The notes below the pieces were generated by a model. The model saw only the letters and a list, made by a program, of their open reading frames with translations, did no database searches and had not been told where the DNA came from. The position numbers were made by a program, and so were the translations under genes. From NCBI GenBank assembly GCA_037482015.1, contig JBBFKT010000005.1, positions 62,001 through 126,000 of the forward strand: 64,000 bases of DNA, given 5' to 3'. This document shows positions 8,594-64,000 of the stretch, one piece after another (the first letter of the stretch is position 1; every line of letters starts with the position of its first letter). Source of the stretch: Thermodesulforhabdaceae bacterium. Lineage in GTDB: Bacteria; Desulfobacterota; Syntrophobacteria; Syntrophobacterales; Thermodesulforhabdaceae.

Positions 8594-9160
8594 TTAGCTA
8601 TTTCCTTCTGTTTCAAAATGTATTTTGCTTTAAGATTATACGCTAAAACTCAAAAATTCAAGTCTTGTGGGAGGGTGTTCTAAAAACCCCCTTACATTTC
8701 CCTATAACGGAATCATTATTATTGTAGGGGCAGGTTAAGAACCTGCCCCTATGGCATGCCCCCAAAAGTGTAGAGCGTATAGAAATGCCAGGCAGATCTG
8801 CTTATGCAATGATCTTGATTATCTGGTCAAATGAAAACTTATTAGGTCTCATACATTTTGTATCCTTATTTATGCCTTTAAAGTGCTACATAATTGGTGT
8901 CTCACTTTTGGGAACACTTCAAACGAAGATATAGCCAGAAAAGCTTGCCAGGATTCGGAGAAACCGTTTCTAAATTCAGTAAAGCCTTTTTCCCTGCAGA
9001 GATACTTGGCTAAACACTGTGTAAAAATGCAAAGCGATTGTTTTTATTTACTTGAACTTTGTAGATACGTAGAATTGAGCCATGTATGGGGATGATGAAA
9101 GGAAAGAAAAGTAACATTCCAGGGGTTTAACTATATTGTTTCAACGAGCGAGGGGAGCCT
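8594..9160. other. 567-bp intergenic region with a half mobile element
   Basis: Between two divergently placed genes. Positions 8671-8757 hold a partial palindromic mobile element, listed separately. The remaining roughly 400 bp are AT-rich, with stop codons in all frames and no RNA-gene-like fold that I can recognise. A sequence at 8906-8920 (TTTTGGGAACACTTC) could be a decayed right terminus of the element, but it is weak. The diguanylate cyclase start at 9161 is preceded by GAGGGGAGCCT, a usable ribosome-binding site. No clear sigma-70 or sigma-54 promoter was found. Confidence 0.6.
8671..8757 (+). mobile_element. Truncated copy of TIR/palindrome element (left half only)
   Basis: It begins with the exact 15-bp terminal repeat GAGGGTGTTCTAAAA (8671-8685). 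About 38 bp later comes the palindrome 8724-8752, with outer arms GTAGGGGC and GCCCCTAT and inner arms AGGTT/AACCT. The body module and right terminal repeat seen in the copies at 54.0 and 63.6 kb are missing, so this is a deletion derivative or solo half. It has no coding capacity. Confidence 0.7.
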
Positions 9161-10837: not shown

Positions 10838-11398
10838 TGGTTCTCATTACAAAAAGTCCTGTAGACCTACTTAGTGAAGTTGTCTGTTATAGCGTTTTCC
10901 TGGTCAAATTCCTTTTCCATTGTGGGGATGATCTCTTTCAATTTGGGAGCGAACCCATAGAGAGAGGATGTTCTAAAACTTCTCTTATGAGTTGGCGAAA
11001 CATAGAAAAGGCAGGGACAAAACTCAGCTTGGAAGACCTTCCCAGACTCAGGTGGCTAAAAACGACCTCAATATATGATTCACCACATAACTGTAGGGGC
11101 GACGCATGCGTCGCCCCTACAATTCTTACGGATTTTTTTAGAACACCATCAATAAAGCTTAGTTTTCCTAATTTTAACATCCCTCCCAATATTAAACCTT
11201 TTATTTGCCCCACTGTTTCTTAGAGTTCATCCACAAATTTATACCATAAATCGCAATTTTAAAACATCCCCAACAAGGCGGAATTATCGAGTACTTTTTG
11301 TTGGACATTGTATAAGCTTAAATAAATAGTGTAAATTAAAAATTGTTATTTGCTAAGCGTTTTTGGTAGCAACTTACAAAGAAAGTTATGAAGCGGTG
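10838..11398. other. 560-bp intergenic region, mostly a mobile element
   Basis: Positions 10964-11150 are a complete copy of the TIR/palindrome element. The flanks (10838-10963 and 11151-11398) are AT-rich and carry no gene I can support. An open frame across 10837-11223 lies on the element and has no ribosome-binding site. A promoter for ftsE must lie in 11220-11390, but no sigma-70 match is good enough to mark. Confidence 0.6.
10964..11150 (-). mobile_element. MITE-like element with 15-bp terminal inverted repeats and internal palindrome
   Basis: A 187-bp non-coding element. Its left end GAGGATGTTCTAAAA (10964-10978) is inverted-complementary to its right end TTTTAGAACACCATC (11136-11150). 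Inside, 11093-11120 is a perfect 28-nt palindrome with outer arms GTAGGGGC/GCCCCTAC around GACGCATGCGTC. Reading the minus strand, the order is terminus, palindrome, then a body module matching the copies at 53985-54161 and 63463-63822 almost base for base. No matching 12-bp duplication is visible in its flanks, so it may be older or rearranged. Confidence 0.75.
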
Positions 11399-53822: not shown

Positions 53823-54287
53823 ATTTTTTTATCCTGGCACCTCCAAGCAGATAGGATTTTTACGGAAAAAAGCTTCCTAATAAAGCTTAGAATCTTCGTC
53901 AAGAGAAAAGAAAGAGGGTGTTCTAAAAAATCGCGACGATAACCCGAGCCGTATCGTAGGGGCATGGCATGCCATGCCCCTACTGAGGGTGTTCTAAAAA
54001 ACTCCGCACCAAATTGTAGGGGCGCAAGGCCGTGCGCCCCTACAGTCACATGGTGAATAATATTTTTAGCTACCCGAGTCTGGGAAGGTCTTCTAAGCTG
54101 AGTTTCGTCCCTGCTTTTTCTATGTTTAGCTACCCCATAAGGGAAGTTTTAGAACACCCTCAGAGAAAAGAAAGGATATTTTTCTAATAACCGTGTCGTG
54201 GCATTGTTGAAGTTGGCGGTGTTCTTAAGTAAATTAATACGGCTATTCAGATCCTTAGGAAAAATTCTTGAGCGAAAGGAGATGTTT
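53823..54287. other. 465-bp intergenic region dominated by a mobile element
   Basis: Holds the composite TIR/palindrome element 53914-54161 and its 12-bp flanking duplications. No conventional gene is present; open frames on the minus strand across 53813-54049 cover the repeats and lack ribosome-binding sites. The hisS promoter is expected in 54175-54275 but is not obvious. Confidence 0.6.
53914..54161 (+). mobile_element. Composite MITE-like element with 12-bp flanking duplication
   Basis: Starts with GAGGGTGTTCTAAAA (53914-53928), repeats the same terminus at 53985-53999, and ends with its inverted complement TTTTAGAACACCCTC (54147-54161). It contains two palindromes. The one at 53956-53983 has a perfect 28-nt fold with inner bases ATGGCATGCCAT; the one at 54016-54043 has inner GCAAGGCCGTGC. 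The sequence AGAGAAAAGAAA occurs exactly on both sides (53902-53913 and 54162-54173), a perfect target-site duplication. Non-coding. Confidence 0.82.
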
Positions 54288-63281: not shown

Positions 63282-63462
63282 TGGTATCCCTCTCTTTTGA
63301 GTAAAGGTATTTATTTCCCTTGGGCAATAATTGTGAAATCATACACTACATGCCTTTGTCAATCTCTTTTTCCCGGGAAGGTAAAAAACCAATAATTAGA
63401 GCACAGTATGCTATACCTTATAATAATTTATTCAACTTTTCTGAACAAACTTCTATCTATCT

Positions 63463-63822
63463 GAGGGTGTTTTAAAAACTCCGTAATAAATTGTGGGGGC
63501 AACCCATGTGTCGTCCCACAGTTATGCGGTGAATCATATATTGAAGTTGTTTTTTAGCCACCTGAGTCTAGGAAGATTTCCAAACTGAATTTCGTCATTC
63601 AAGGCATCATCGTAGGGGCAACCCCTTGTGGTTGCCCCATAATAGGGTAGGCACAAGGCCTGCCCCTACAAACGGCCAGAACTTTCTCCTCCCCCTGTGA
63701 GGTTGTTTTACATGTAGGGACGACCGGCCGGTCGCCCCTACAATATCCCCTATATGCACATCAACCAATATCGTAAAATGGCCGGCGCTACGAACATATC
63801 AACCACTTTTTAGAACACCCTC
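63463..63822 (+). mobile_element. Long MITE-like element with four palindromes
   Basis: 360 bp. The left terminus GAGGGTGTTTTAAAA (63463-63477) pairs with the right terminus TTTTAGAACACCCTC (63808-63822). Palindromes: 63493-63519 (decayed), 63612-63640, 63647-63669 (one arm shortened) and 63714-63741 (inner GACCGGCCGGTC). The first 140 bp match the body of the copies at 10964 and 53985. The flanks TTCTATCTATCT (63451-63462) and TCCTATCTCTCT (63823-63834) agree at 10 of 12 positions, a decayed target duplication. Non-coding. Confidence 0.8.
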
Positions 63823-63833
63823 TCCTATCTCTC

Positions 63834-63862
63834 TTGACATTTTCTCTGCCGATTAGTAGATG
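63834..63862 (+). promoter_or_regulatory. Candidate sigma-70 promoter next to mobile element
   Basis: TTGACA, a 17-nt spacer and TAGATG lie about 55 bp upstream of the FAD-protein start. The -35 is perfect, the -10 weak. Its first base lies within the proposed target duplication of the adjacent element. Confidence 0.4.
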
Positions 63863-63917: not shown

Positions 63918-64000
63918 ATGTCATCTGTGGCAAGTCATCTCACAGGTGCGGTTACTGTTGTAGGTGGTGGTATATCTGGCATTCAGGCGGCTCTGGATCT
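63918..64000 (+). CDS. FAD-binding HdrA/QmoA-like protein, 5' fragment
   Basis: The first 27 codons only. The leader is followed by the dinucleotide-binding strand-turn VTVVGGGISGIQAALDL (GxGxxG). With sulfate-reduction genes just upstream, an HdrA or QmoA flavoprotein is likely, but other FAD oxidoreductases begin this way. The ATG follows ACAGGAGACTTAG. The rest lies beyond the window. Confidence 0.7.
   Translation, partial: MSSVASHLTGAVTVVGGGISGIQAALD

Follow-up and report, generated by a model that had tools for sequence, protein, structure and literature searches.

The non-coding element at 53914-54161 of the window (the whole stretch of DNA analysed, 64,000 nucleotides) belongs to a repeat family whose members appear, from the sequence, to insert exactly at the upstream edge of promoters. 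It is very probable that these elements are MITEs of an ISAae1-like insertion sequence, moved in trans by a DDE_Tnp_1-type transposase and inserted in a site-directed manner at the -35 box of sigma70-type promoters. The initial annotation recognised the mobile element; it overlooked the most informative feature of the locus, which is that the target-site duplication ends at a -35 box.

Elements in the window and their family

Element 1 is 248 bp long and has perfect 15-bp inverted ends, GAGGGTGTTCTAAAA on the forward strand at 53914-53928 and its exact inverse on the reverse strand at 54147-54161. A perfect 12-bp duplication, AGAGAAAAGAAA, adjoins these ends exactly at 53902-53913 and 54162-54173, and has no further occurrence in the window on either strand. 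The ends and flanks are as initially described. Element 1 is composite, since its interior holds a third copy of the end (53985-53999). Element 2, a 360 bp MITE at 63463-63822, has the ends GAGGGTGTTTTAAAA and GAGGGTGTTCTAAAA and the 12-bp flanks TTCTATCTATCT (63451-63462) and TCCTATCTCTCT (63823-63834), which agree at 10 of 12 positions, again as first noted. An older and more diverged element, with one mismatch in each end and flanks that are no longer alike, is present at 10964-11150, and a lone family end at 8671-8685 on the forward strand. Palindromes of about 28 bp, GTAGGGGC...GCCCCTAC, recur inside the elements (53956-53983, 54015-54044 and 63713-63742 in the window, and many others) and seem to form a small palindromic repeat family of their own, carried by the elements.

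In the genome to which the window belongs (2.7 Mb in 32 contigs; genomic positions are given here as contig:position), exact GAGGGTGTTYTAAAA ends occur 44 times and the reversed pattern not at all. With up to two mismatches there are 175 ends, against 31 for the reversed control, an excess of about 144. The ends are therefore not chance repeats, and the family amounts to roughly 70 elements. Its members are short and non-coding, with terminal inverted repeats, a flanking duplication and many copies, as is characteristic of MITEs.

Duplication lengths were read from those of 33 candidate pairs that have clear flanking repeats, and span 9-12 bp (10 bp in ten, 11 bp in six, 9 bp in six and 12 bp in four). 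Perfect examples include AATTGGTTAAT (11 bp), TGTCCAATAAAT (12 bp), ATAGAACTTG (10 bp) and TTTTTCTGTGT (11 bp). The initial proposal that 12 bp is a property of the transposition was thus right in that the duplication is real, but the length varies and is mostly 10 bp; element 1, at 12 bp, stands at the upper limit of the family range. The reading first offered, in which an uncommon DDE transposase makes a fixed 12-bp duplication at no particular target, drew on the two window copies with 12-bp flanks. Given the range of lengths and the strong target specificity described below, it now has almost no probability.

A few loci carry additional features. Within an 813-bp element (C2:67728-68540, locus L041), group II intron sequence is present at 1875-2147 of the locus (C2:67874-68146; Rfam RF02001, 103 bits, and RF01998, 50.7 bits), and is an intron or intron remnant carried inside the MITE. 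A similar but shorter group II intron-like stretch is seen by eye in L045 (C3:72940-73330). Several contigs end inside an element end or within a few hundred bases of one (near C2:441, C16:433 and 25988, C20:19738, and C23:222 and 16917), which suggests that the assembly collapsed longer, nearly identical copies that may be intact insertion sequences.

A fixed register with the -35 box

One side of the duplication is usually adjoined directly by GTCA (on the left) or TGAC (on the right). Across 110 ends, GTCA lies 9, 10, 11 or 12 nt from the end in 4, 24, 10 and 6 cases respectively, or 44 in total, and the remaining 76 distances together yield 13 matches. GTCA was also considered as a part of the element, and was rejected on account of its position outside the duplication. 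When the outside sequence is aligned on this motif, it reads TTGAC(A/T), followed about 17 bp on by a TA-rich signal at the -10 position.

The same register emerges when no motif is required. Twenty-nine empty targets were rebuilt by joining the flanks and keeping a single copy of the duplication, and a sigma70 matrix was scored at every offset in both directions. The matrix uses E. coli-like frequencies, and the promoters are predicted ones. With the first T of the -35 hexamer as the last base of the duplication (T|TGACA), the score averages 7.36 bits; at every other offset within 25 bp the mean is between -3.0 and +0.4. This register scores highest among about 236 positions in 18 of the 29 targets. 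Most of the hexamers contain TTGAC, and most of the others are TTG followed by a variant (TTGCC, TTGTC, TTGGC, TTGAT, TTGAA or TTGCA). Among all 110 ends, 47 pass the promoter threshold in register, whereas shifted registers give 1-4. A spacer of 17 is the commonest optimum for the -10 box, and the element end stands 8-11 bp from the -35 box. A few elements (L036 at C1:577271; L054) have no clear promoter in register. Two further elements (C8:70531-71022 and C1:926253-926512) have GTCA at 10 nt on either side and no matching duplication, and may well be products of recombination between two copies.

In the window, a candidate -35 box, TTGACG, lies at the duplication edge of element 1 on the reverse strand (53897-53902), reading away from the element, with a weak -10 candidate, TAGGAA, at 53874-53879 on the same strand. 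For element 2, TTGACA at 63834-63839 and a -10 candidate, TAGATG, at 63857-63862, both on the forward strand, point towards an ORF beginning near 63918.

Many sites, the two window promoters among them, have only a weak -10 match, and TTGAC is nearly invariant, whereas ordinary promoter sets show the opposite pattern. Together with the position of the cut within the hexamer, this lends some weight to a simpler reading, in which the transposase recognises bare TTGAC (GTCAA) and promoters are struck because an intergenic TTGAC is often a -35 box. Such a reading is plausible, though we hold it to be somewhat less than an even prospect. Against it, the -10 scores at element TTGACs exceed those at other intergenic TTGACs (1.36 versus -0.37, p=5e-5) and those at TTGACs upstream of same-strand ORFs (1.47 versus -0.34, p=9e-4). 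In addition, sites with TTGGC, TTGAA and TTGAT have strong -10 boxes (TATCAT, TATAGT and TATAAT). The evidence that a strong -10 makes up for a weak -35 box is only anecdotal, and no overall anticorrelation between the two scores was found at the element sites.

Genes and RNAs downstream

Of 46 predicted promoters, 39 read in the same direction as the nearest downstream ORF (p=2e-6). Four downstream RNA features whose 5' ends are known provide independent anchors: a tRNA gene begins 52-55 bp away from the edge of the element at three loci (L049, tRNA-Cys; L083; and L099, tRNA-Met, which is one of the seven exceptions in ORF orientation), and a cobalamin riboswitch begins 43 bp from it at L090. 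Taken together, the register and the tRNA and riboswitch anchors strongly support insertion at what would be functional promoters.

An ISAae1-like transposase

In the absence of a transposase gene in the window, the initial annotation proposed mobilisation in trans and a genome search for a gene bracketed by the same termini. Such a gene is present at C5:143096-144068, where a 288-aa ORF matching DDE_Tnp_1 lies between two exact family ends. The copy is degenerate: it has no duplication, and an internal deletion has removed about 24 residues relative to a second remnant at C1:72401-72880. The latter adjoins the end TAGGGTGTTCTAAAA (C1:72345) on its 3' side and is interrupted by another element, so that neither coding copy found in this genome is intact. 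At the same locus (L064, 1346-4001; C1:72345-75000), the interrupting element is IS1595-like by eye, and an apparent CRISPR array, with a unit that translates as KSNHCGIET and is repeated many times, lies beside the remnant.

The MITEs and the C5 coding copy have more than their exact ends in common. By inspection, the MITE subterminal sequence ACTCCGTAATAGAAT resembles ACTAGATAATCGAGG of the coding copy on the left, and CTTCCCTTATGGGG resembles CTTCTTTTATGGAGA on the right. The elements are best read as having arisen by deletion from an ISAae1-like insertion sequence whose transposase is of the DDE_Tnp_1 (IS5/IS4-like) type, and we infer that this transposase performs the insertion.

An uncommon enzyme had been suspected from the long duplication, but the transposase is of no unknown kind; it is a relative of that of ISAae1 (tblastn E=2e-20), and transposases of this type are 32-36% identical to their homologues in ISAae1 and other Aquificales elements. 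PF01609 (DDE_Tnp_1, IS4/IS5 type) is matched at 25.9, 62.9, 57.8 and 66.1 bits, all above the gathering score of 23, with full-length relatives at 57.8-62.9 bits. The NCBIfam IS5_2 model gives 56 bits for the host genome's copy, 97 for ISAae1 and 105 for the transposase of locus L112, all below its cut-off of 140, and the enzyme would accordingly be akin to IS5_2 but not filed there. The AlphaFold model of the L112 transposase is poor (pLDDT 49), and no conclusion was drawn from it.

Where a promoter is recognisable beside a coding copy, in this genome and in Aquificota, it lies at the 3' end of the transposase gene. MITE ends show a corresponding bias, with types B (right-like) and C promoter-proximal in 23 of 35 cases and the left-like type A in 8 of 30 (p=0.003). 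Since the promoter-proximal end is usually the right-equivalent one, on the side of the transposase 3' end, insertion appears to be oriented.

It may be asked whether the MITEs are instead moved by a Mutator-like transposase of the ISLre2 or ISKra4 type, with the ISAae1-like genes as bystanders, as these are known promoter-targeting families (PMC3942029). However, the duplications are 9-12 rather than 8-9 bp and the distance to the -35 box is 8-11 rather than 13-17 bp, and in several genomes these ends, with the same register, are found on or next to ISAae1-like genes. All Pfam and NCBIfam matches of the transposase are to other families. A search of the genome gave no ISLre2 or ISKra4 match, although this search was a weak one in which the ISLre2 control gave no match either. 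We regard mobilisation by a Mutator-like transposase as very improbable.

Empty sites and other lineages

In a genome of the same genus (G001), the promoter of element 1 is present without the element (TCTTTTTCTCTTGACTAATGGATCTAATTTACATTAGG, compared to TTTCTTTTCTCTTGACGAAGATTCTAAGCTTTATTAGG in the window). The possibility, raised initially, that the AGAGAAAAGAAA pair was a pre-existing repeat is thereby removed, and the pair stands as a duplication. The tRNA-Cys promoter likewise has TTGACA and no element in G001, G002 and G004. In G003, the orthologous promoter carries a different element, with the end GAGCCTGTTCGAAAAAA, in the same register (GCAAAGATCT|TGACA). The G003 genome also has a degenerate ISAae1-like fragment next to the corresponding family end. 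At two G003 loci (L168 and L173), the element interiors match DUF6444 (PF20042), by eye part of an IS66-type transposase; it would seem that a further mobile element is nested in these copies or has been captured by the family.

The register rule was found and tested on the same loci of the host genome, and loci of other lineages are independent of it. There, the ends in register are 7 of 24 for related ends in a Thermodesulfobacteriota MAG (G340), 10 of 18 for the pooled relatives G001, G003 and G004 (nearly all from G003), and 6 of 10 for Aquificota families with related ends, with mean counts of 0.2-0.7 at other registers in these sets. Loci L128 and L130 read TTGACA-N17-TATAAT exactly. By inspection, ISAae1 itself has the duplication AACCAAGGT followed by TTTACA-N16-TATACT.

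Copies of the family are mostly intergenic, as would also be the case if elements landed at random and selection purged those that break genes or promoters, leaving those just upstream of promoters. Selection of this kind would tolerate any place upstream of the -35 box, yet the signal is confined to one base offset, and the same register recurs in unrelated genomes. The single-base register contradicts an explanation by selection only, and we give that explanation hardly any credence.

A possible mechanism of insertion

In the site-directed insertion that we favour, an ISAae1-like transposase would act in trans on the non-coding MITEs, cutting one strand at a fixed point within the -35 box (T|TGACA) and the opposite strand at a point 9-12 bp upstream of it. 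Filling of the gaps would then duplicate roughly the region from -35 to -46, and the core promoter, along with the 9-12 bp immediately upstream of it, would be rebuilt intact on one side. By landing at the upstream edge of a promoter, the family could spread without breaking genes.

Because the target would survive insertion, the same promoter could be hit again, and the order after a repeat insertion would be promoter, duplication, new element, duplication, old element. At least eight copies (L041, L043, L046, L052, L053, L082, L088 and L090) do have an older inverted end after the duplication on the promoter-distal side. It was considered whether this old end is itself the target signal; the idea was rejected, since repeat insertion at one promoter explains the arrangement better.

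We infer that recognition rests mainly on the -35 hexamer. That TTGAC hardly varies and that the cut falls within the hexamer both speak for the transposase reading it directly, to which we would give an even chance, while the enrichment of -10 signals favours a contribution of the real promoter. Recognition by way of RNA polymerase at the promoter is a serious but somewhat weaker candidate.

Comparison with known systems

The closest relatives are ISAae1, from the Aquifex aeolicus plasmid ece1 and annotated as IS5-like, and its kin in Aquificales. These have similar ends (GAGCCTGTTGAAAAAAT, compared to GAGGGTGTTCTAAAAAA here) and a homologous DDE_Tnp_1 transposase, and the right end of ISAae1 faces the -35 box in the same register. 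Unlike the MITEs described here, they are transposase-coding elements of about 1 kb, and their duplications are slightly shorter (9 bp in ISAae1). No report on the target preference of ISAae1 or its Aquificales relatives was found among the papers searched, none of which names ISAae1.

Promoter targeting as such is already known. In the TnGBS, ISLre2 and ISKra4 group, studied by Guerillot and colleagues (PMC3942029), Mutator-like transposases place the element 13-17 bp ahead of the -35 region of sigmaA promoters; the duplications are 8-9 bp long, and asymmetry between the ends determines the orientation. Those elements resemble the present ones in their fixed distance upstream of promoters and in being oriented where the ends differ. 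However, they belong to another transposase superfamily, whereas the elements here stand 8-11 bp from the -35 box, have duplications of 9-12 bp and imply a cut inside the hexamer. IS1202-family elements (PMC10132070) target dif/pdif sites at a fixed distance and orientation, with the XerC binding site 5 bp away; this is likewise fixed spacing from a cellular DNA site, but the site is that of XerC and not a promoter.

As far as our searches show, three aspects are new: the involvement of another transposase superfamily, the geometry of insertion, and the occurrence in both Aquificota and the group to which the window belongs. No report of promoter targeting by the ISAae1-like lineage was found in a search that was thin on subscription journals, so an earlier description is possible. 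It may be, and we put the chances just short of even, that an IS5-type, ISAae1-like transposase reads the -35 hexamer directly, as sigma region 4 does, and cuts within it, and that it represents a second lineage, present in at least two phyla, that has evolved promoter targeting independently and with a geometry of its own. In practical terms, each copy would flag a promoter to within a base, also in uncultured bacteria for which there are no expression data. Site-exact promoter targeting in bacteria has otherwise been described, as far as we found, only for Mutator-like transposases, and a second, unrelated lineage, whose geometry differs and is sharper, would point to convergent evolution towards a low-cost landing site. 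The insertion of Ty3 at tRNA gene promoters in yeast is a parallel.
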